Assembly: GCA_019638705.1 (NCBI GenBank)
Contig: JAHBTI010000001.1
Span: 310,001 to 374,000, forward strand
Source: Bacteroidota bacterium
GTDB taxonomy: Bacteria; Bacteroidota; Bacteroidia; B-17B0; Aurantibacillaceae
Direction: 5' to 3'
DNA length: 64,000 nt
Each line of letters starts with the position of its first letter. Positions within the stretch are counted from its first letter, which is position 1. Shown here piece after piece: positions 6,192 to 53,640 of this stretch. The position numbers and the translations under genes were made by a program. Below the pieces are notes generated by a model. It saw only the letters and a program-made list of their open reading frames with translations, did not search any database and had not been told where the DNA came from.

Positions 6192-8216
6192 TTACCAAAT
6201 TTCCACCCGCTTATTTTCTTCCGTAAACATTTTATCGCCTTCTTTTACGCCAAATGCTTCGTAAAATTCAGGCATATTGCTTAACGGTGCAAAAGCGCGA
6301 ACGCTGCCGGGCGCGTGGAAATCCAATTTCAACAAACGTGCCACTTCGGCATCGCGGGCTTTAATTTTCCAGCCTTGTGTCCATGCAATAAAGAAACGTT
6401 GTTCGCCTGTGAAACCACCTATTACAGGAGATTTCGCACCGTTCAACGCTTTTTTGTAAGCATAGTAAGACATGGTTAATCCGCCCAAATCGGCAATGTT
6501 CTCACCTTGTGTCATGCTTCCGTTTACATGAATGGAATCCAACAACACATAATTATCAAACTGCTCCACAATTTTTTGTGTTTTTGCTTTGAAGTTAGCA
6601 GAATCCCTTTTTGTCCACCAATTCACCATGTTTCCGTCAGCATCAAATTGTGAGCCTTGGTCGTCAAAACCGTGTGTGAGTTCGTGTCCGATAATTGCGC
6701 CCATTGTTCCGTAGTTGGTGGCATCATCGGCTGTTGCATCATAAAACGGCGGTTGCAAAATTCCCGCAGGAAAAGCAATTTCATTGGTGCTTGGGTCGTA
6801 ATAGGCATTTACCATAGTGGCGGGCATTTGCCATTTGTCGCGGTCAACAGGTTTTTTCAATTCGTCTAATTCGTCTTGTGTCCACCATTTTGCGCTGCGG
6901 CAAACATTTGCCCAATAGCTGTCAGTGCTAACTTCCATGCCTGTATAATCTTTCCATTTGTCGGGATAACCGATTTTGCGGATAAGCAAATCCAATTTTC
7001 TGTTTGCCTGTAATTTGGTGCTGTCGCTCATCCACGTTCTGCTGGCAATGCGCTCGCGGTACGAAGCAACTAAATTGTCAATGAGTTTGTTTAACTTGTT
7101 TTTTGCTTCGGGCGTAAAATGTTTTTTCACAAACTCGCGCGAAACAATGTCACTCATGTGAGCGTCCATTACGCCGTTTACACGTTGCCAGCGTGGTTTC
7201 ATTTGTTTTGCGCCACTCAACACTTGTCCGCGAAACGCAAAATGTGTTTCTACAAAATTGCTGCTCAAAAATGGCGCGGCATCCATTAATAATTGCGCTT
7301 TGGCATAGAGCTTTAATGTTTCAAGATTTTTTTCGGTTAAAAGCGAATTTAATTTTTTCATGTAATCCACATGGGCAACATTAATGGTATCAGGCAAAAT
7401 ATTTTTTGATTTAAAAAACAAATCCCAATTTACGCTTGGTGCAAGTTCGCGCAACGATTTTTGCGTATAAATATTGTATTGTTTTTCAATGTCGCGCATT
7501 TCATTGCGGGTAAAGGCTTTGTCTGAAAGTTGTTTTTCAAATTCAAACACGCGCTCTGCATTTTTCTTTGCATTGGCTTCGGAAACATTGATGTAAGTAA
7601 ACAATTTTGCGAGGTAATTTTTGTACTCGTTTTGAATGTGCGCAGTGGCAGGATTGTGATAGTAATCTCTGTCGCCCAAGCCATAGCCGCCCTGCCCAAT
7701 GCCGAAAACATTTTTCTTGCTGTTTTTTAAATCGGCAGAAACATCCCAACCAAAAAGCATAGGAATATGAAGAACATCAAACTCATTTTTCAAAGCAAAA
7801 AAATCTTCTAATTTTTTCACATTATCAATCATCGCTAATTGCGCTTCAATCGGCTTAATGCCCAATTCATCGGCTTTAGCGGAATCCATGGCGGTATTGT
7901 AAAAATCACGCAAACGTTGTTCGTCGGTATTAGCTGCCGCCGAAGTGTTTTTTGAAGCACTGTCTAAAATCAATTTTATGTTTTTGAGATTGCGTTCCAA
8001 AATTTCGTTGAAACTTCCAAAGCGCGCATCGCTTTCGGGCAATTCAAAAGTGGATTGCCATTTTCCGTTGCAAAACGTATAAAAATCTTCGCGTGGGTTT
8101 GCGGCAGAATCAATGTAGGATAAATTAATTCCCGGATTTACTTCCGCTTGTTTGTTTTCTTTGCAGCCGCTCAATATTGCTATACAAACGGCGGCAATGG
8201 TAATTTTTACTTTCAT
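6192..8216 (-). CDS. M13 family zinc metallopeptidase lipoprotein, paralogue 1
   Basis: A 674-residue neprilysin/PepO-type endopeptidase anchored as a lipoprotein: signal sequence with lipobox LSGC, Cys at residue 18. The catalytic motif HELTH is at 511-515, the third zinc ligand lies in GENIADLGG about 60 residues later, and the substrate-binding NAYY motif precedes the active site. M13 enzymes cleave oligopeptides, so a periplasmic or surface peptide-degrading role is likely. A full-length paralogue of 673 residues with the same lipobox context (ACKENKQ) lies at 51552-53573, sharing long identical blocks. A strong terminator follows the gene. No obvious operon partner. Confidence 0.93.
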   Translation of the reverse strand: MKVKITIAAVCIAILSGCKENKQAEVNPGINLSYIDSAANPREDFYTFCNGKWQSTFELPESDARFGSFNEILERNLKNIKLILDSASKNTSAAANTDEQRLRDFYNTAMDSAKADELGIKPIEAQLAMIDNVKKLEDFFALKNEFDVLHIPMLFGWDVSADLKNSKKNVFGIGQGGYGLGDRDYYHNPATAHIQNEYKNYLAKLFTYINVSEANAKKNAERVFEFEKQLSDKAFTRNEMRDIEKQYNIYTQKSLRELAPSVNWDLFFKSKNILPDTINVAHVDYMKKLNSLLTEKNLETLKLYAKAQLLMDAAPFLSSNFVETHFAFRGQVLSGAKQMKPRWQRVNGVMDAHMSDIVSREFVKKHFTPEAKNKLNKLIDNLVASYRERIASRTWMSDSTKLQANRKLDLLIRKIGYPDKWKDYTGMEVSTDSYWANVCRSAKWWTQDELDELKKPVDRDKWQMPATMVNAYYDPSTNEIAFPAGILQPPFYDATADDATNYGTMGAIIGHELTHGFDDQGSQFDADGNMVNWWTKRDSANFKAKTQKIVEQFDNYVLLDSIHVNGSMTQGENIADLGGLTMSYYAYKKALNGAKSPVIGGFTGEQRFFIAWTQGWKIKARDAEVARLLKLDFHAPGSVRAFAPLSNMPEFYEAFGVKEGDKMFTEENKRVEIW

Positions 8217-43151: not shown

Positions 43152-44201
43152 TTAATCTATTTGAAACAATTCCACTTGAAAAATTAAAGTGGCGTTTGGA
43201 GGAATAACTCCGCCTGCGCCTTGCGCACCGTAACCCAAGTTTGAGGGAATTTGCAACAAGGTTTTTCCGCCCACTTTCATTAATTGCAAACCTTCTGTCC
43301 AACCGGGGATTACTTGGTTTAAACCAAATGAAATGGTTTGACCACGGTCGTAGCTGCTGTCAAACACCGTACCGTCCATCAACATACCTTTGTAATGAAC
43401 GGTTACTTTGCTTGTGGCACTTGGCGATGCGCCTGTTCCCTCTGTTAAGTGAATGTATTTTAAACCCGAAGCCGTTGTTTGTGCTTTGTCAAATTGTTTC
43501 AATACATTGTCAAAAGCAGCTGTGGCAGCGGCTTTTTTCTCGGCTTCTTTTTTCACCAAATTTTCCTGTGCTTCTTTAAATGTTTTAGCGGCATCAAAAC
43601 TTTCGGCTTCTTTGCCTTTGCGTAAAATCACCAAACGTTTAAGCGTGTCGCTTTGGACAATGGTATCTACCACATTTTGCCCCTGAATAACATGACCAAA
43701 CACAGTATGCTTGCCGTTTAACCAAGGTGTTTCAACGTGTGTGATAAAAAACTGCGAGCCGTTAGTGCCGGGACCTGCATTTGCCATACTTAAAATACCT
43801 GCACCGCTGTGTTTTAACGTAGTATCAATTTCATCGGGAAATTTATAACCCGGGTCGCCTGTGCCTGTTCCCAAAGGGCAACCGCCCTGTATCATAAAGT
43901 TGGGAATTACGCGGTGAAATTTTAATCCGTCGTAATACGGTGTGTTTGCAGGTTTTGCGGTATTGGTAATTGTGCCTTCTGCCAAACCCACAAAGTTAGC
44001 CACCGTCATGGGCGTTTTCTTAAATTCTAACAGTGTATAAATATCACCTTTGTTTGTTTCAAATTTTGCATAAAGCCCGTCAGCCTGCTTGCTTAAAAAT
44101 TCTTTGTCCATTTTACTGATTTGTTGTTTTGCTTTTTTTTGCGCTACTGCTCCAAAATTGGTAACAGTAATTGCCGCGATTAATAAAACTAATTTTTTCA
44201 T
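43152..44201 (-). CDS. Cyclophilin-FKBP fusion peptidyl-prolyl isomerase
   Basis: 349 residues with a Sec signal peptide (to FGAVAQ, about 21). Residues ~45-195 are a cyclophilin domain ([36 protein letters not shown]) and residues ~245-349 an FKBP domain ([54 protein letters not shown]), joined by a helical linker ([14 protein letters not shown]). Both are complete, so one chain carries two unrelated proline isomerases. It is the third gene of three consecutive isomerase genes and is followed by a terminator. A periplasmic folding role, probably for the many exported Pro-containing beta-sandwich proteins, is likely. Confidence 0.93.
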
Positions 44202-44252
44202 TTTGCTTTGTGTTTTTATTTTGTGTTTATGATGTGCTTAAACGGACAAAGT

Positions 44253-45164
44253 TTATTGGGCAGTTTTAACATCTATCAATTCTACTTCAAACATTAAAGG
44301 CGCATACGGCTGAATATCTTGTCCCGCACCTTGCGCACCATAAGCCAATTCAGACGGAATAATCAATTTTGCTTTGCCGCCTTTTTTCATCAGTTGCAAT
44401 CCTTCTGTCCAACCTCTGATTACGCCGTTCAAGGGAAATTCAATCGGTTCGCCGCGTTCTACCGAACTGTCAAACACCTTACCGTCCAGCAATTTGCCTG
44501 TGTAGTGAACTTTTACAATATCGGTTTCTTTCGGGCTTGCGCCTGAACCTTTTTTAGTTTCAACGTAATACAAACCCGAAGCCGTTGGTTTTACGGTAAT
44601 TTTATTGTCAGCCAAATATTTTTCCAAGGCAGGTTTTTCTTTCGCTTCCAATTCTTTCATCATGGCTTCTTGCTCTGCCATTTGCTGTTTGCGGTTTTCT
44701 TCTATTTCTTTGGCAGGAATAATGTCCACCATTTTAAATACGCCTTTTAAATAATCGCCCGGTTTAAAGCCCGGAAGCAATTCGTTGTATCGCTGCGTTT
44801 TTAAAAAGAACGAATCGGCAGAAATAATAAACGCCGCGCTGTCGCCTTTAGCCATCATCATCATGCCGTCTTCAAAACTTCCCTGAAAAGTTGATTTTGT
44901 CATGGCGAATTTTACGTTCCCCGAACCGTCTGCACTGTTGTTTTGAGAATTAAAAATTACAGAATCGTTGCTTTCTTTGTTAATGGTGTAGCGAATGGTA
45001 ATGCCATCGCCCTCCTGCACGGTTGCACCGTCTTCATCGTGATTGAAAAATTTGTAGTGCAAGCCGTTGTCGGCTTTGGTGTAGCCGTCAAATTGTGAGT
45101 TGTTGCTGCACGCGCCAAACAACAAGGCTGTGGCGGCAGTTGAAAGTAATGTTACTTTGTTCAT
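44253..45164 (-). CDS. FKBP-type peptidyl-prolyl isomerase lipoprotein
   Basis: 303 residues; lipobox FGAC with Cys19. The C-terminal ~105 residues form a full FKBP domain ([51 protein letters not shown]). The N-terminal part (about 35-150) has its own weaker FKBP-like strand pattern (TIRYTINKESND, FEDGMMMMAKGDSAAFIISADSF), then a charged helical linker. It may therefore be a two-domain isomerase in which only the distal domain is catalytic. The middle gene of the isomerase set, 51 bp from the next. Confidence 0.92.
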   Translation of the reverse strand: MNKVTLLSTAATALLFGACSNNSQFDGYTKADNGLHYKFFNHDEDGATVQEGDGITIRYTINKESNDSVIFNSQNNSADGSGNVKFAMTKSTFQGSFEDGMMMMAKGDSAAFIISADSFFLKTQRYNELLPGFKPGDYLKGVFKMVDIIPAKEIEENRKQQMAEQEAMMKELEAKEKPALEKYLADNKITVKPTASGLYYVETKKGSGASPKETDIVKVHYTGKLLDGKVFDSSVERGEPIEFPLNGVIRGWTEGLQLMKKGGKAKLIIPSELAYGAQGAGQDIQPYAPLMFEVELIDVKTAQ

Positions 45165-45175
45165 TTGTTTGTGAT

Positions 45176-46015
45176 TTATTCTTTTATGTCAATTATTTTT
45201 ATTTCGTACAGCAAGGGCGTAAAAGGGGGCACAGTTCCGTTGCTGCTGCCGCTTTCTCCGTATGCAAGGCGCGAAGGTAAAATTATTTTTGCAACTGCAC
45301 CTTTTTTTAGTTTCGGGATAACATAATTTAGTCCTTTCAGCATTTGGTGGGGCATACCGTAAATAAGTTCAAAATTTTCGGCTTTTTCTAAAAAACGACC
45401 GTTAAGGTAATAACCCGAGTAAGCTATTTTTACAAGACTGCCGTTTTTTATTGGTTTTTCCGAGATTTCATCGGACTTGTGAAGCCAATAAAAACCTGTT
45501 TCGTCTTTTTGGGCAGCGTGAGATTTCAAATATTCGTCAATTTGGTTTTGTTCTTTTTTGCGCAAATTTTCGTTGAACGCGGAAAATTCGGCAGGAGTTA
45601 AAATTTCTTTTACACGCAGGTTAATTTTCACCGCGCTGTCGTTTTTGCTGAAAAAAGGAATTTGGTTTAATTCAAATTGCTGCAAGAAAAATTTATCGGT
45701 TGGGATTAAAAGGCAGGCACTGTCCTTTTCGGTACAGCACGACACATAATGCTGCAAAAAATTACTGCGCTGCAAACTGTCAATACGAATAAAAAAGCAA
45801 TCGTTGAAATTATTAAAGCTGTCCCAAAACACAGAATCCGATTGGGTTTTAAACGTTACGGAAACTCTTGCAACATGGTTTGGTTTGTATTGAAATTTAT
45901 GTGTGTCAAATGCCAGTAAACGGTAATGGTAACCTAAAGCGTGGTGAGAAAAACTTTGTTTATGTTCGTGTTTGCAGGAAAATAAAAACAATAAAGAGAA
46001 AAGGATTAACCACAT
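45176..46015 (-). CDS. FKBP-type lipoprotein (GldI-like)
   Basis: About 279 residues from the ATG at 46015, whose MWLILFSLLFLFSC is a compact lipoprotein signal. The frame is open further upstream to 46129, but those residues make no signal peptide. An N-terminal beta-rich region (about 30-160) precedes an FKBP domain (SLVKIAYSGYYLNGRFLEKAE, GLNYVIPKLKKGAVAKIILPSRLAYGESGSS). GldI-type FKBP lipoproteins are needed for gliding in Flavobacterium; identity as GldI is not proven. The start codon and first residues (MWLIL) lie in a dispersed repeat. The first of three isomerase genes, 11 bp from the next. Confidence 0.82.
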   Translation of the reverse strand: MWLILFSLLFLFSCKHEHKQSFSHHALGYHYRLLAFDTHKFQYKPNHVARVSVTFKTQSDSVFWDSFNNFNDCFFIRIDSLQRSNFLQHYVSCCTEKDSACLLIPTDKFFLQQFELNQIPFFSKNDSAVKINLRVKEILTPAEFSAFNENLRKKEQNQIDEYLKSHAAQKDETGFYWLHKSDEISEKPIKNGSLVKIAYSGYYLNGRFLEKAENFELIYGMPHQMLKGLNYVIPKLKKGAVAKIILPSRLAYGESGSSNGTVPPFTPLLYEIKIIDIKE

Positions 46016-46026
46016 AGAAACATAGT
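46008..46026. repeat. CTATGTGG-type repeat providing a start codon
   Basis: TTAACCACATAGAAACATAG; read on the minus strand it contains the ATG of the FKBP lipoprotein (CTATGTGGTTAATCC). A related tract is at 46117-46150 at the end of the MarR gene. Confidence 0.55.
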
Positions 46027-46116
46027 TATTCTTTGGTCGGAGGCAGTAAATATAGCTGCACAAAGTATTTGTCGCTTTGCGACAAATACTTTGTTTTCCT
46101 ATAATTATGTGCATTA

Positions 46117-46150
46117 AGAAACTATGCAAACTATGTTAGTATGTGGTTTT
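46117..46150. repeat. CTATGTTAG/TATGTGG repeat at the end of the marR gene
   Basis: AACTATGCAAACTATGTTAG followed by TATGTGGTTTTG overlaps the last codons of the MarR gene (NKTTY); member of the same degenerate repeat family. Confidence 0.45.
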
Positions 46151-46579
46151 GTTTGCACAATTTTTTGCAATGTGCTTTAATGTTGTGGTCGTGCCGGCAA
46201 TGTCTTTTTCGGAAATTCCTCTTAAAGCGTGTTCTCTGTTTTTAAGAACAATGTTGCTTACCTGTTCCATTGCTTTTTCGCCTGTTTTTGTAATTTTTAA
46301 AAACAAACGCCTGCCGTCTTGGCTGTGGCTCGATTTTGCAAGGTATTTGCTTTTTTCCAGCAAGGCTATAATTCGTGTAATGGAAGCCTTGTCTTTAAAA
46401 ACTTTTACGGCAAGTTCCTGAAACTGAATATCGGGCTCGTCCTGTATTGTTTTTAAAACCAACCACTGGTCAATCGTTATATTTAATCCTGCCTGTTTAA
46501 TTTGAGTTTGTGCATATTGCCTGTACGATTTAATTGCTTTTTCTATGTGATAGAAAATTACCTTGTCTAACATTTCCAT
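46136..46579 (-). CDS. MarR-family transcriptional regulator
   Basis: A 147-residue winged-helix protein: N-terminal dimerisation helices, then the DNA-binding core (QWLVLKTIQDEPDIQFQELAVKVFKDKASITRIIALLEKSKYLAKSSHSQDGRRLFLKITKTGEKAM) with the MarR beta-wing signature DGRR-LFLKITKTG. MarR proteins bind palindromic operators near genes they control and release on ligand or oxidation. It is followed by the isomerase lipoprotein gene and preceded at 130 bp by the TonB-family receptor gene. An identical TTGATATATCAA palindrome lies upstream of two peptidase genes 5-7 kb away and is a candidate MarR target, but this is inference. Confidence 0.9.
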   Translation of the reverse strand: MEMLDKVIFYHIEKAIKSYRQYAQTQIKQAGLNITIDQWLVLKTIQDEPDIQFQELAVKVFKDKASITRIIALLEKSKYLAKSSHSQDGRRLFLKITKTGEKAMEQVSNIVLKNREHALRGISEKDIAGTTTTLKHIAKNCANKTTY

Positions 46580-46709: not shown

Positions 46710-49166
46710 CTATCCAAGGCTTCCGCCTGCCCGCTGTTTCACATCGTCTGCGCCTCCCGCTTTTCTTCGGCTCGGAGCTACATTATTGTTGCCAAATTTA
46801 TAGGTGAACAAAAGCGTAGCTACTCGGGTATCTCTTGTTACAGAAAAATGTTCTTTATAATTTGAAAACTCTACGTTGGCTGTAATTTTATTGGTAAAAG
46901 CAATGTCTGTAAAATTAAATTTCAAAAGGGCTTTATTATCCCAAAATCTTTTTTGAACGCCTACGGAAACAAACCATATTGGATTAATAAGGTCGTAAGC
47001 ATAAATTTCACGCCACCTATAGTTACCACTTAATTCGGCAGAAGTCGTTTTGTTGATAGCAAAATTGTTTACCCAGTTAAAATTAAAGGTTGGCTTTCCC
47101 ACATTGTTTATGGGCGTGTTTGCCACATTGCCGCTATAAGCAGCATAGTAAATGTTAAGGTCTGAATTTATTGACCACCATTTTTTTATTTTCAGAGGCA
47201 TAGATACTCCCAAAGAATATACATCTACTTTCCCGAGATTAATATTTGTTTGTACGGTTGTGTTTAAAGCATTTTGAGAAGGCGCAAGCACTTCGGTAAT
47301 GTTATTGATAGTACGCCCAAACGCTAACGTGGTATAGATTTTTTGTTTGTACACATGGCTAAATTCAACACCGTGTGTTGTTTGCGGTTTCAGATACGGA
47401 TTTCCTTCTTTGTAGGTAGAGGGGTCTAAAAAAAACTTGAACGGATTGAGCTGATTGTAACTCGGGCGCATAATTCTTCGGCTATATGCTAATTCCAAAC
47501 CATTTTTATCATTGATTTTATATCCCAAAAAACCACTCGGAAACAGTTGCACGTAATTGGTATCAAAACGTGTGTTATACACTATTTGCTCGCCCGTTAC
47601 GTGTGTGTGTTCGCAGCGTAAACCTAATTGTGTACTCCATTTGCCAATGTCTTTGGTAAATGTGAAATAAGCCGCATTAATATTTTCTTTGTAAATGAAG
47701 TGATTGCTTTTTGTTGAATCATACACATTCTGCCCGCTGCTTTGGTCGTAGAATGCCAAGTTATTGTCTGCAACCACATAGCTTGATTTTACACCTGTTT
47801 CAATTTTGGCATCGTTCTTTAAGGGTTTAATCAAATCGCTTTTTATGGAATAAATATCAAGTCCGCCGTGCACATCGCCATAAAGCAGGTAAAAGGGTTT
47901 GAACTCATTGCCTGCAAGATTGTAATAGCGGGTGGTGAAATTTTGTTCGGTATTATTTCCGAAATGTGCGTAATCAACATCTGTTGTCAGTTCAGTGCCT
48001 GTTGAGTCAAAAATGTGTTTATAATTAAGGTTTGCCGAATAGTTATACCAATTGTCGCGTGAACGGTTGGAAGTACGGAAACTTGATGCCTTTTGATTGT
48101 TGTAATCATACACATCAGAAACATTCTCACCGACTGGATTGAATTTGGTACTTAGTCCATTCAACACAATTCCAAATGTATTTTTATCATTCATAAAGAA
48201 ATCTGCGCCTGCGCGCCCAATGTGATTGCGCACAGGGAATAAAAGATAATTATCCTGCACATAAGAGCCTGTCAAGGTATCGGTATTGTAAAAATCACGG
48301 TCAAGCACCAGATGATTAAATCCTTTGCGGTAAGCATAGTTGTAACTGCCAAATACATTTACTTTTTTTTCGCGGTGATTGAAATTAATCCCTTCATTTG
48401 TTTTAGGATAAACGCCCTGCCCATAGCTCGCAGTCATGCTTCCGTTAGTGCCTAGACGCTTGTCTTTTTTTAGTTTGATATTGATGATACTGCTGCCTGA
48501 CGCATCGTATTTTGCAGAAGGGTTGGCAATAAATTCAATTTTATCAATGGCAGAAGAAGGAATGCCGCGCAGGTAATTGGCAAGGTCGCTTCCTGTCATT
48601 GGTGTAGGTTTCCCGTCTATCTGCACCATAATTCCCTGTCTGCCCTTGTACGCAATATTATCAGTTGAATTTATTGTAACGCCGGGTGATTTTTCTAATA
48701 ATTCAAATGCCGAAGAACCCGCCGAATTAATGCTGCTCTCTACATTCATGATTACTTTTCCGTGTTCGCGTTCAATAAAAGGTTTTTTGTGCTCAATTAT
48801 TACTTCGTTTAAATTAGTAGTGTTTTTATTTAGTGTAATTGTTGGTAAAACAGTGTTTTCAGTAAGAGCAAAAACCGTACTTTTATATTTAGGATAATTG
48901 ATAAGCGTGGTTTGAATAAAATAATTTCCGATGTCAATCCCCGAAAAAATAAATTCTCCTTTTTCATCGGTGAACTCTGTTTTTACTAATGAGGAATCTT
49001 TTTGTTTGATGAGTTGCACAATCACATCACTAAGCGGCAACCGAGTTTGCTCATCGGTAATTTTACCTGAAACACTTTTGTTTTTACCTTGATTTTCCTG
49101 TGCTTTCAATGCCGTTGTATTAAACACAAGCAAACAAACGATTGTATATAATTTAAAACTGCTCAT
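46710..49166 (-). CDS. TonB-family outer-membrane beta-barrel receptor
   Basis: 818 residues with a signal peptide (to ALKAQ, about 22), a carboxypeptidase-regulatory-like domain (about 30-110; SGKITDEQTRLPLSDVIV, GEFIFSGIDIGNYFIQ), a plug-like domain (EKSPGVTINSTDNIAYKGRQGIMVQIDGKP, LANYLRGIPSSAIDKIEFIANPSAKYDASG) and a long beta-barrel to the C-terminus. This matches the family often called outer membrane beta-barrel 3 (OMP_b-brl_3). Ligand unknown; such receptors are commonly paired with MarR regulators, and one is 130 bp downstream. The final residues (RKAGGADDVKQRAGGSLG) lack the usual terminal aromatic. Confidence 0.88.
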   Translation of the reverse strand: MSSFKLYTIVCLLVFNTTALKAQENQGKNKSVSGKITDEQTRLPLSDVIVQLIKQKDSSLVKTEFTDEKGEFIFSGIDIGNYFIQTTLINYPKYKSTVFALTENTVLPTITLNKNTTNLNEVIIEHKKPFIEREHGKVIMNVESSINSAGSSAFELLEKSPGVTINSTDNIAYKGRQGIMVQIDGKPTPMTGSDLANYLRGIPSSAIDKIEFIANPSAKYDASGSSIINIKLKKDKRLGTNGSMTASYGQGVYPKTNEGINFNHREKKVNVFGSYNYAYRKGFNHLVLDRDFYNTDTLTGSYVQDNYLLFPVRNHIGRAGADFFMNDKNTFGIVLNGLSTKFNPVGENVSDVYDYNNQKASSFRTSNRSRDNWYNYSANLNYKHIFDSTGTELTTDVDYAHFGNNTEQNFTTRYYNLAGNEFKPFYLLYGDVHGGLDIYSIKSDLIKPLKNDAKIETGVKSSYVVADNNLAFYDQSSGQNVYDSTKSNHFIYKENINAAYFTFTKDIGKWSTQLGLRCEHTHVTGEQIVYNTRFDTNYVQLFPSGFLGYKINDKNGLELAYSRRIMRPSYNQLNPFKFFLDPSTYKEGNPYLKPQTTHGVEFSHVYKQKIYTTLAFGRTINNITEVLAPSQNALNTTVQTNINLGKVDVYSLGVSMPLKIKKWWSINSDLNIYYAAYSGNVANTPINNVGKPTFNFNWVNNFAINKTTSAELSGNYRWREIYAYDLINPIWFVSVGVQKRFWDNKALLKFNFTDIAFTNKITANVEFSNYKEHFSVTRDTRVATLLFTYKFGNNNVAPSRRKAGGADDVKQRAGGSLG

Positions 49167-49209: not shown

Positions 49210-51486
49210 TTAATCCACCAACAATTTTTGTGTTACTGATTTTCCGTTCACAGTCATATTCACAAAATAAATGCCTTGTTCCAACGTATTGTTTTTGTTA
49301 ATGGAAATGGTGTGTTCGCCTGCTGTAAAGCTGTTATCAATAACATTTAACAGCACACGACCCGTAACATCAATCACATTTATTTTAATTGCAGAGGCAT
49401 CGGCTAAAGTAAATTTCAAAGTTGCTTCGTTGTCAGTTGGATTTGGATACAAGTTCAGCGACACTAATTTGTCGGGAAATTTGTTTAAACCGTCAGGAAT
49501 ATTCGTATTAATACCTCCAATATTAACGGCATCAATAAATAAATTGTTTCCATGCCCAATGCTGCTTTCTTTAAAGTTAAAACGAATGAGCAGCGTTGGT
49601 GAATTTTTATATTGATTCCATGCCGAACTGTTTACATGATACACTTTCCATTCTTCTTTTGAAAACGGGAAATAAGGAAAATCGGCTTCTATTATTCCGC
49701 CCGAGCCGTTTTGCATAACATTTGCATTCAGAATTGCTAAATCTGCCCATGTAGCGGCGCAATCCGAAGATGCCTGTACTTTTAAAACATCGTTATGCGA
49801 TGTGCTTGCTCTTGCGTAAGCGTAAGCAAAGGTGAATGTTTTTTCGGCAATGGTTTGCATATTAATAAGAGGTAAGTAGAGATTGTCTTCCTGATTAGCT
49901 CCTGCCTCAGCACCCGACACATAAAAACTTGAAACGCCGTCGTAAGCTATGTTATCGCCAATTCCTGTCCATTCAGATGTACCCACATCAGGGTTTACAA
50001 CCGACCAACCCGCAGGCAAACCACTTTCAAAACTTTCTGTAAACGCTGTGGTGATGCCCGGTGTAGCATTTTTCACTTCAACTGTTCTTGTGAAAGAACT
50101 TATCAGACCGCTTGAATTGGTTACTGTTAATGTTACGGTTGTTATTCCCTGCAAGGGAAATGTAATAGTTGTAATTGAATTTGCCGAAGCGGCTGTTGCG
50201 CTGTTGTTGCCTGTCCATTGCCATGAAACAGGCATACCGTTGTAAGAATAATCTTTTACTTCCAATGCGCCGCCCGCACACACGGTATATGAGCCGTTAG
50301 TGGAAATCCAATCGGCAATAAGTGCGCAAGGAAGTGTTCCGTCCACATCGGTAGCCGTTAAGTTTTCGGGCGTGCTTAAATTATTTCTTCCTGATGTGGC
50401 TTGACTTAATGTAAGCTGCATTTTATTGGTTTGACCCGCAGTAAAATTTCTCGGACAGTTGGAATAATCCATAAAATTTTCTGCATTTTGAAAATAAGGT
50501 GCTTGGCTAAAAGGTGTGCTGCTGCTGAAACACGGGGGACTCATTGTAAAAACGGAACATGCGCTGCCAACACCAAAATTTCCTCTGGTTATGGGTGTGT
50601 CAGAAATTCCGTCATCATTACCGCAGGCAACTCCCGGATTATTGGTATTGCCAAAAGTATGGTCTAAGTCAAGCCAGTGCCCTAATTCATGTGCGAGTGT
50701 ACGAGCCTGTAAACCGCCTAAATAATCGTATCTGTACACAATGGCATCTTGTACGGCGTTGGTTGCCCATGTTCCGGGTTTGTATGTATATCCTACAATA
50801 ATTCCGCCTCCTGCTACCGAACCTTGAGGAATAATATTTTTCACTACAATAATATTTAAGTATTTGGACGGTGTCCAGGTAATGCCGGCAAAATTATTTG
50901 GTGTACCTATTCCGTTATTTGCCTGATGCCAGTTTGTTCTGTCATCGTAATGATGCACAATGCCGTTTGTACACTTTCCCTGAGGGTCTTTGTGCGCCAG
51001 CATGAATTTAATCTGTGAATCAATATAACCTGCAGGAGTTTGCGGATATGTTCCGTCTTTAAACGGTTTAAAAATTAAATTCGTGTCAGCCCCTTGCCTT
51101 GAAAAATCGCGGTTCAGTTGAGCAAGGGCATCAATGCAAACTTGGTCAGCAACATTTTCAACACCATATTGGTGCAAAACGTGAAACACTACAGGAATAG
51201 TGTAATCGCTGAGGGCTGTGGTTTTGGCAGCAGCGTTTGCATTAGCGTTACGGTTGGCTATACGCTCCTCGTAAAGTTTTTGCGTCATTTTCTCTTTAGC
51301 TTCGTAGGCTGCTTTGGCTTGCGGATTGGCATGAAAGTATTCTTCCATAGCAGCATACGTATTGCAAGGCTGAATGTTTACTTCCTGCGAAAAACCTAAG
51401 GCGGGCAATAAGAAAATAATGCCGAGTGCGAATTTTGGTACGTGTGTTTGCATGTGCTTTTTATTTTTAATTGTTAGCTTTTTCAT
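49210..51486 (-). CDS. Secreted M43 metalloprotease with PKD and T9SS type A domains
   Basis: 758 residues from the ATG at 51486; the ATG at 51453 (MQTHVPKFALGIIFLLPALGFSQ) gives a shorter signal peptide and is also possible. The catalytic motif HELGHWLDLDH is at 266-276, with intact Glu and three His, and NFMDYSNCP lies at the Met-turn. A PKD region (about 440-510), a jelly-roll-like domain and a C-terminal type A sorting domain (LNLYPNPTDNEATLKF, GIYFVNMTVNGKSVTQKL) follow. It is an active-looking pappalysin/cytophagalysin-type protease, exported by T9SS. A TTGATATATCAA palindrome is 16 bp before the start. Confidence 0.92.
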   Translation of the reverse strand: MKKLTIKNKKHMQTHVPKFALGIIFLLPALGFSQEVNIQPCNTYAAMEEYFHANPQAKAAYEAKEKMTQKLYEERIANRNANANAAAKTTALSDYTIPVVFHVLHQYGVENVADQVCIDALAQLNRDFSRQGADTNLIFKPFKDGTYPQTPAGYIDSQIKFMLAHKDPQGKCTNGIVHHYDDRTNWHQANNGIGTPNNFAGITWTPSKYLNIIVVKNIIPQGSVAGGGIIVGYTYKPGTWATNAVQDAIVYRYDYLGGLQARTLAHELGHWLDLDHTFGNTNNPGVACGNDDGISDTPITRGNFGVGSACSVFTMSPPCFSSSTPFSQAPYFQNAENFMDYSNCPRNFTAGQTNKMQLTLSQATSGRNNLSTPENLTATDVDGTLPCALIADWISTNGSYTVCAGGALEVKDYSYNGMPVSWQWTGNNSATAASANSITTITFPLQGITTVTLTVTNSSGLISSFTRTVEVKNATPGITTAFTESFESGLPAGWSVVNPDVGTSEWTGIGDNIAYDGVSSFYVSGAEAGANQEDNLYLPLINMQTIAEKTFTFAYAYARASTSHNDVLKVQASSDCAATWADLAILNANVMQNGSGGIIEADFPYFPFSKEEWKVYHVNSSAWNQYKNSPTLLIRFNFKESSIGHGNNLFIDAVNIGGINTNIPDGLNKFPDKLVSLNLYPNPTDNEATLKFTLADASAIKINVIDVTGRVLLNVIDNSFTAGEHTISINKNNTLEQGIYFVNMTVNGKSVTQKLLVD

Positions 51487-51501: not shown

Positions 51502-51513
51502 TTGATATATCAA
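51502..51513. promoter_or_regulatory. Palindromic operator TTGATATATCAA (site 1)
   Basis: Perfect 12-bp palindrome 16 bp upstream of the M43 protease ATG. The identical word stands upstream of the adjacent M13 peptidase gene at 53629-53640. A MarR-type factor is a reasonable candidate ligand; not proven. Confidence 0.6.
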
Positions 51514-51551
51514 TATTTGTTTCAAAAAAATTTATGTTGAAATTTAAGAAA

Positions 51552-53573
51552 TTACCAAATTTCCACCCTATCCTCTTCTGTCGTAAACATGTTATCACCT
51601 TCTTCTACATGAAAGGCTTCGTAAAATTCAGACATATTTGTTAATGGTGCGTATGCGCGAATACTGCCGAGTGCGTGAGGGTCTAATTTCACTAAACGTT
51701 TTATTTCTTCATCGCGGGCTTTAAGTTTCCAGCCTTGTGCCCAGGCAATAAAAAAACGCTGCTCACCTGTGAAACCTCTAATTACGGGTGATTGTAAGCC
51801 ATTCAACGATTTTTTGTAAGCGTAATACGACATGGTTAATCCGCCCAAATCTGCAATGTTTTCACCTTGGGTAAGACTTCCGTTTACATGTAGCGAGTCG
51901 AGTAAAACATAATTATTAAACTGCTCAATAATTTTTTGTGTTTTTGATTTGAAGTTTTCAAAATCTGTTTCTGTCCACCACATTTTCATATTTCCGTCCG
52001 CATCAAATTGTGAACCCTGGTCGTCAAACCCGTGTGTGAGTTCGTGCCCGATAACAGAACCAATTGCACCGTAGTTGGCGGCGGCATCGGCATTTGCATC
52101 AAAATACGGCGGCTGCAAAATTCCCGCAGGAAAACATATTTCGTTTGTAGTCGGGTTGTAATAAGCATTTACGGTAGGTGCGGTCATTTGCCATTTGTTG
52201 CGGTCAACGGTTTTTTTCAAATCACTCAACTCGTCCAAAGTCCTGAATTTAGCAGCTCTGCAAACGTTTGCCCAATAGTTATCAGTTGCAACTTCCAGTT
52301 TTGAGTAATCTTCCCATGTATCGGGATAACCGATTTTTCTGATGATTAAATCCAATTTTCTGTTTGCCTGTTGTTTGGTGCTGTCGCTCATCCACGTTCT
52401 TGTGGCAATGCGTTCGCGGTACGAGTCAATTAAATTATCAATCAGCACATTCATTTTTTCTTTGGCTTCGGGAGTGAAATGTTTTTTTACAAACTCACGC
52501 GCCACCATATCGCCCATGTTATTGTCTATTACGCCATACACACGTTGCCAGCGCGGTTTCATTTTTTTTGCCCCGCTCAGCACTTTTCCGCGAAATGCAA
52601 AACTTGTTTCCACAAAATTGCTGCTCAAAAATGGCGCGGCACTCATTAATAATTGCGCTTTGGCGTAGAGTTTTAATGTTTCAATTATTTTTTCGGTTAA
52701 GAGTGCGTTCAATGCTTTTATGTACTCTGTATGCTCAACAATAACAGTATCGGGCAAACTGTTTTTTGATTTAAAAAACAAATCCCAGTTCATGGCGGAA
52801 GCAAGTTCGCGTAAAGTTTTTTGAGAATAGACATTGTATTGTCTTTCAATGTCGCGCAATTCCAAGCGGGTAAAGGCTTTGTGAGTTAATTGTTTTTCAA
52901 ATTCAAACACACGCTCTGCGTTTTTCTTTGCATCGTCTTCCGATACATTAGTATATGTAAACAGTTTTGCGAGATAATTTTTATACTCGTTTTGAATGTG
53001 TGCGTTTGCAGGGTTGTGATAATAATCTCTGTCGCCCAAGCCATAACCGCTTTGCCCGATGCCGAAAGAATTTTTCCTACTGTTTTTTAAATCGGGTGAA
53101 ACACCACAGTCAAAAAGCAATTTAATTCCCGTGAAATCAAATTCATTTTTCAAAACGAAAAAATCCTGCAAGTTTTTTACCTTGTCAATCATCGCTAATT
53201 GTGCTTCAATGGGCTGAATGCCCAATTCATCGGCTTTAGCGGAATCCATGGCTGTATTGTAAAAATCACGCAAACGCTGTTCATCGGTATTTGCCGCCGC
53301 CGAATATTTTTTTGAAGCCTTGTCTAAAATCAGCTGTATGTTTTTCAAGTTGCGTTCGTGAACTTCGTTGAAAGTGCCAAAACGCGCATCGCTTTCCGGC
53401 AACTCAAACGTTGATTGCCATGTGCCGTTGCAAAAGCTGTAAAAATCTTCGCGCGGATTTGCGATAGTGTCCATATAAGACAAATTAATTCCCGGATTAA
53501 TTTCCGCTTGTTTGTTTTCTTTGCATGCGCTTAACAAAGCCACAGCCGTTAAGCAGGTAAACATTTTTTTCAT
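51552..53573 (-). CDS. M13 family zinc metallopeptidase lipoprotein, paralogue 2
   Basis: 673 residues, lipobox LSAC with Cys17 or so. HELTH at 510-514, NAYY and GENIADLGG are intact, so it should be an active M13 endopeptidase. It is a paralogue of the 6192-8216 gene, sharing long identical segments including the N-terminal CKENKQAE...NPGINLSY. Differences are spread along the protein rather than clustered. An operator-like palindrome and a -7 box lie upstream, which the first paralogue lacks, so the two are probably regulated differently. It is followed by the M43 protease gene on the same strand. Confidence 0.93.
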   Translation of the reverse strand: MKKMFTCLTAVALLSACKENKQAEINPGINLSYMDTIANPREDFYSFCNGTWQSTFELPESDARFGTFNEVHERNLKNIQLILDKASKKYSAAANTDEQRLRDFYNTAMDSAKADELGIQPIEAQLAMIDKVKNLQDFFVLKNEFDFTGIKLLFDCGVSPDLKNSRKNSFGIGQSGYGLGDRDYYHNPANAHIQNEYKNYLAKLFTYTNVSEDDAKKNAERVFEFEKQLTHKAFTRLELRDIERQYNVYSQKTLRELASAMNWDLFFKSKNSLPDTVIVEHTEYIKALNALLTEKIIETLKLYAKAQLLMSAAPFLSSNFVETSFAFRGKVLSGAKKMKPRWQRVYGVIDNNMGDMVAREFVKKHFTPEAKEKMNVLIDNLIDSYRERIATRTWMSDSTKQQANRKLDLIIRKIGYPDTWEDYSKLEVATDNYWANVCRAAKFRTLDELSDLKKTVDRNKWQMTAPTVNAYYNPTTNEICFPAGILQPPYFDANADAAANYGAIGSVIGHELTHGFDDQGSQFDADGNMKMWWTETDFENFKSKTQKIIEQFNNYVLLDSLHVNGSLTQGENIADLGGLTMSYYAYKKSLNGLQSPVIRGFTGEQRFFIAWAQGWKLKARDEEIKRLVKLDPHALGSIRAYAPLTNMSEFYEAFHVEEGDNMFTTEEDRVEIW

Positions 53574-53603
53574 CTTAATTTCAGTTTAAATTAATTCTTG
53601 GGG

Positions 53604-53611
53604 CAAATGTA
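53604..53611 (-). promoter_or_regulatory. -7 box upstream of M13 paralogue 2
   Basis: TACATTTG on the minus strand, 31 bp before the ATG. The palindrome at 53629-53640 lies just upstream, in the -33/spacer region, where a bound regulator could act. Confidence 0.55.
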
Positions 53612-53628
53612 CAATTTTTTTTAATTAG

Positions 53629-53640
53629 TTGATATATCAA
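53629..53640. promoter_or_regulatory. Palindromic operator TTGATATATCAA (site 2)
   Basis: Identical to site 1, within AT-rich sequence AATTAG..AATTAAAT, 56 bp upstream of the peptidase start and 18 bp from its -7 box. Confidence 0.6.

Follow-up and report, generated by a model that had tools for sequence, protein, structure and literature searches.

The 12-letter palindrome TTGATATATCAA is very probably recognized by a MarR-family regulator whose gene lies at 46136-46579 of the window, by which we mean the whole 64,000-nucleotide stretch of DNA analysed here. Based on comparative sequence data, we consider it highly likely that the palindrome is the operator of this MarR, and that the MarR would repress an M13 peptidase gene and a predicted M43 peptidase-outer membrane protein-marR operon until a signal releases it.

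Four genes lie on the minus strand in the order M13b, M43, OMP, MarR. The first encodes M13 peptidase copy b (M13b, 51552-53573), a probable lipoprotein of the PepO/neprilysin type by Pfam (PF05649/PF01431) that scores under the curated cut-off of the NCBIfam PepO model. It is followed by an M43 peptidase with a T9SS type A sorting domain (49210-51486; PF05572, PF18962), an outer membrane beta-barrel protein of the OMP_b-brl_3 type with a CarboxypepD_reg-like N-terminus (OMP, 46710-49166; PF14905), for which a search for function gave no match among solved structures, and the MarR-family regulator (PF01047). The gaps between M43 and OMP and between OMP and marR are 43 bp and 130 bp, and no terminator was predicted on the minus strand in either of them. 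We predict that M43 is the first gene of an M43-OMP-marR operon and that marR is likely the last gene of this unit. Downstream of marR, the same strand encodes three peptidyl-prolyl isomerases in a row (FKBP, FKBP, and a cyclophilin-FKBP fusion, 43152-46129), and there is a long hairpin at 46060-46094, close to where the first of these reading frames starts.

The initial annotation had noted an identical 12-bp palindrome upstream of two peptidase genes, and pattern search found exactly these two copies of TTGATATATCAA, at 51502-51513 and 53629-53640, which we annotate as predicted operators without strand. Both are 5' of minus-strand genes, promoter-proximal, and near marR, which is on the same strand, downstream of M43 and OMP, at distances of about 4.9 and 7 kb that agree with the 5-7 kb given initially. 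Copy 1 ends 15 bp upstream of the M43 ATG at 51486, extends to a 14-bp palindrome, ATTGATATATCAAT, and has no clear -7 box. Copy 2 ends 55 bp upstream of the M13b ATG at 53573, and as previously remarked it is upstream of a predicted Bacteroidota-type -7 box, TACATTTG (53605-53612, minus strand), which begins 29 bases past the operator start, with about 16 bp between operator and box. We did not find the exact word upstream of the window's own marR, so autoregulation would depend on read-through from copy 1 across the 43-bp and 130-bp gaps.

The evidence that carries this assignment comes from 80 relatives of the window MarR, sampled from across Bacteroidota. In 47 of the 80, the exact word is located within 120 bp upstream of marR, compared with two for the next palindromic 12-mer, and among 60 palindromes of the same composition, 58 were absent upstream of marR and one was seen once. 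Clustering the MarR proteins leaves the exact word at 21/39, 15/29, and 10/20 loci at 80%, 70%, and 60% identity, respectively. There are 50 copies in 16,000 marR-upstream bases versus 7 in 631,312 other bases, and of these 7, two lie shortly past marR, while the other five stand in front of a marR operon's leading gene or of that gene's upstream neighbour. A relaxed site, TTGANNNNTCAA, was present within 160 bp of marR in 67/80 relatives, where about 0.67 would be expected. Some variants of TTGANNNNTCAA have changed yet palindromic centres (CGCG, CCGG, and CATG in TTGACGCGTCAA, TTGACCGGTCAA, and TTGACATGTCAA), as would be expected if a symmetric dimer reads the site. The presence of the site, its position, its specificity, and its conservation are direct observations.

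The word at copy 1 matches the word upstream of the marR orthologues, and these sequences indicate that in loci with no site at marR itself, the site is often found at the head of the operon. The closest orthologues are L132 and L133 (65 and 63% identical to the window MarR); there the word precedes an OMP gene and then marR, a layout that resembles copy 1 before M43-OMP-marR; the window OMP is 64.7% identical to that of L132. Other arrangements place the word before a PF00144 serine hydrolase gene followed by marR (L204 and L208), or between divergent OMP and marR genes (L150 and L205). Within the genus, only 6 of 40 genomes, the window genome included, have a window-type MarR by strong matches, and in four of the five other carriers (G002, G008, G018, and G043) the exact word lies 20-25 bp before marR, while the site was found at 0/8 non-orthologous MarR genes of the genus. 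Given that the word is conserved before marR orthologues and absent at unrelated MarR genes, we assign it to the window MarR as its probable operator, which lends support to the early suggestion that this MarR is in control. Whole-genome searches found the word in 38/38 MarR-bearing genomes, a sample picked for having it at the marR locus. Extra exact copies in these other genomes were often intragenic background, mixed with a few promoter sites, so a match to the exact word does not by itself prove function.

The window protein belongs to the MarR winged helix-turn-helix family by profile (PF01047, 38.6 bits against a cut-off of 24.6; PF12802, 34.2 against 27) and by matches to MarR/SlyA sequences in the PDB, down to E = 8.6e-18, with solved relatives that include 3oop, 8xt8, SlyA (3q5f and 4aih), and E. 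coli MarR (1jgs). It scored far under every curated cut-off of the named NCBIfam equivalogs (BilQ, HpaR, SlyA, MprA, OhrR, MarR), the best being BilQ (58 of 125 bits) and HpaR (57 of 121). E. coli MarR sites have the form TTGCC..GGCAA, and the 12-bp inverted repeat described here is similar in form, as is the autoregulation suggested by gene position. A palindromic site at or near the regulator's own gene or operon is a trait of the MarR family, and here the site heads the predicted M43-OMP-marR unit. The targets are different: an outer membrane barrel and secreted peptidases rather than the efflux pumps or aromatic degradation genes of MarR/SlyA-type regulators. Staphylococcal SarA/MgrA-type regulators are MarR-fold proteins that govern secreted exoproteases, and the SarA/Rot Pfam model does match the window MarR (32.1 bits, cut-off 27), although the NCBIfam Sar model does not (30.6, under its cut-off of 62.6). 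This likeness is one of fold, role, and profile score; the phylum, the targets, and the operator all differ.

We propose that a MarR dimer would bind TTGATATATCAA and cover the promoter or transcription start, repressing M13b as a unit of its own and M43-OMP-marR as a second transcription unit; together the two make up the predicted regulon in the window genome. With marR inside the second unit, the regulator would control itself. A signal, perhaps a small molecule or a peptide, would release MarR, and the OMP and the secreted peptidases would then be made together. We infer the binding, repression, co-transcription, and signal in this scheme from sequence, and most likely the operator is a repressor site. 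Boxes of the form TAnnTTTG occur at recurrent offsets from the operators (-5, +13, +29/+30), and the operators overlap or abut them; this overlap with the promoter or start region, together with the general habit of the family, is what points to repression released by a signal. It is also conceivable, but in our judgment unlikely, that the MarR bound at TTGATATATCAA activates its targets or works with a second regulator, given that copy 2 is so placed upstream of its -7 box that its position fits either mode and that in 44 of the 67 loci with TTGANNNNTCAA there is a second, weaker site 15 bp further on. Most MarR proteins are repressors, however, and in other species the operators either overlap the -7 box or are found between the box and the start codon.

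Conservation upstream of orthologous peptidase genes, which the initial annotation had expected, did not hold up: neither TTGATATATCAA nor TTGANNNNTCAA was found within 250 bp upstream of 28 M13 relatives (0/28) or 27 M43 relatives (0/27). Most of the genomes of these relatives are without a window-type MarR, so the test does not apply to them, and since the word is seen upstream of marR orthologues, we set this apparent refutation aside. In three same-genus genomes (L103:6614-6625, L107:6041-6052, and L115:5643-5654), we noted that TTGATATATCAA, followed by a TTATATTTG stretch, stands 57-60 bp upstream of an orthologous gene for a T9SS-secreted product. We did not find an orthologue of the window MarR in these three genomes, and the word there is possibly read by another regulator. 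They could speak for an unlinked regulator of the same specificity reading the word in the window genome as well, with the nearby MarR being incidental. We regard that as very improbable, because the word tracks the window-MarR orthologue group throughout the phylum and is absent 5' of those M13 and M43 relatives that we checked in other genomes of the genus and of the class.

The window genome has two M13 peptidases, while nearly all same-genus relatives hold a single one. The paralogue at 6192-8216 is 78% identical to M13b, and as the initial annotation stated, it has no operator site upstream; judging by sequence, the M13 pair is a recent duplication with a predicted operator at one copy only. 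Similarly, the operator is absent from the M43/T9SS paralogue in the same genome (G000:C25:14411-16972, L092), which is 68% identical to the window M43. The two copies of TTGATATATCAA flank M13b exactly, and with M13b being a recent duplicate, they might be direct repeats left by its insertion beside M43. This explanation has a very low probability in our view, since the flanks beyond the palindrome differ between the copies and the word is conserved elsewhere as a putative operator. The operator may nonetheless have been spread by duplication, which is compatible with operator function for TTGATATATCAA, as an account of origin rather than of function.

Searched by pattern across the whole genome (3,220,770 bases, 99.94% complete), as had been recommended, TTGATATATCAA has two exact copies only, both in the window and 15 bp and 55 bp upstream of start codons. 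The expectation is 0.27-0.75 copies per genome under Markov and composition models, and the reversed word, used as a control, has 0 copies in the whole genome. Nearly all of the 13 own-genome sites with one mismatch whose surroundings we read are intragenic, and we dropped the idea of a wider own-genome regulon on that basis. The repeat within the window is weak evidence when taken alone, because some repeated palindromic 12-mer is common in simulated sequence, and the significance of TTGATATATCAA rests on the comparative data. That an AT-rich palindrome happened to occur twice is the least probable explanation of all and in effect refuted, for even though 163 of 300 simulated 64-kb windows of the same composition (54%) contain a repeated palindromic 12-mer and relatives without the MarR have the word about 0-3 times, often inside genes, this word dominates upstream of orthologous marR genes.

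As for the origin of the locus, a MarR tree groups the window protein with the two Saprospiraceae proteins L132 and L133 (support 100/95), with G054 as the next branch, apart from most same-genus copies. The window OMP is also 65% identical to the OMPs of these two. A Saprospiraceae-like source thus seems to have supplied the marR-OMP cassette, and the resident duplicated peptidase genes may later have been placed under its operator. Cassette transfer followed by peptidase capture would be the simplest account.

The initial annotation proposed a small peptidase regulon, and the partners of marR elsewhere support the peptidase part of this while adding a component it did not mention. Judging by gene neighbourhoods, the outer membrane barrel is the most constant partner: in 42 loci the gene immediately downstream of marR encodes an OMP from a family of about 810 aa, and in several more such a gene adjoins marR. 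S41 peptidases are directly downstream in 7 loci, and further partners include S12-like hydrolases, trypsin-like S1, and S46. In Flavobacterium, S8 with M1 genes are partners, often 170-250 bp off, and may be under their own promoter. That so many unrelated peptidase families recur as apparent partners supports the peptidase theme, as a tally and not a formal enrichment. We also considered the extra exact copies of the word in other genomes as a wider peptidase regulon, which we rejected; the only clear fit was an S58 (DmpA-like) peptidase in Flavobacterium limnosediminis (L270:2518-2529), where the word lies 10 bp before the gene and is not linked to marR.

The features by which we recognize a Bacteroidota OMP-MarR-peptidase regulon, namely a MarR orthologue, an OMP_b-brl_3 partner, and a TTGATATATCAA-type operator, are all found in the window. 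We take the predicted regulon to be new, with a regulator of a familiar family; no published description of TTGATATATCAA or of a regulon with this MarR in Bacteroidota was found in the literature searched, though absence there is not proof. To our knowledge, only a handful of T9SS cargo regulators have been described in Bacteroidota. An operator, a regulator, and a target list for the control of secreted proteases amount to a testable, phylum-wide prediction, and cultured genera, among them Chryseobacterium, Flavobacterium, and Mucilaginibacter, have the same word. More tentatively, and short of an even chance in our estimate, a previously undescribed MarR switch may, throughout the phylum, control an OMP barrel jointly with secreted peptidases that are unrelated to each other and vary from host to host, as a mobile, peptidase-capturing cassette with a conserved peptide response. 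If true, that response might serve, for instance, to scavenge peptides or to withstand antimicrobial peptides.
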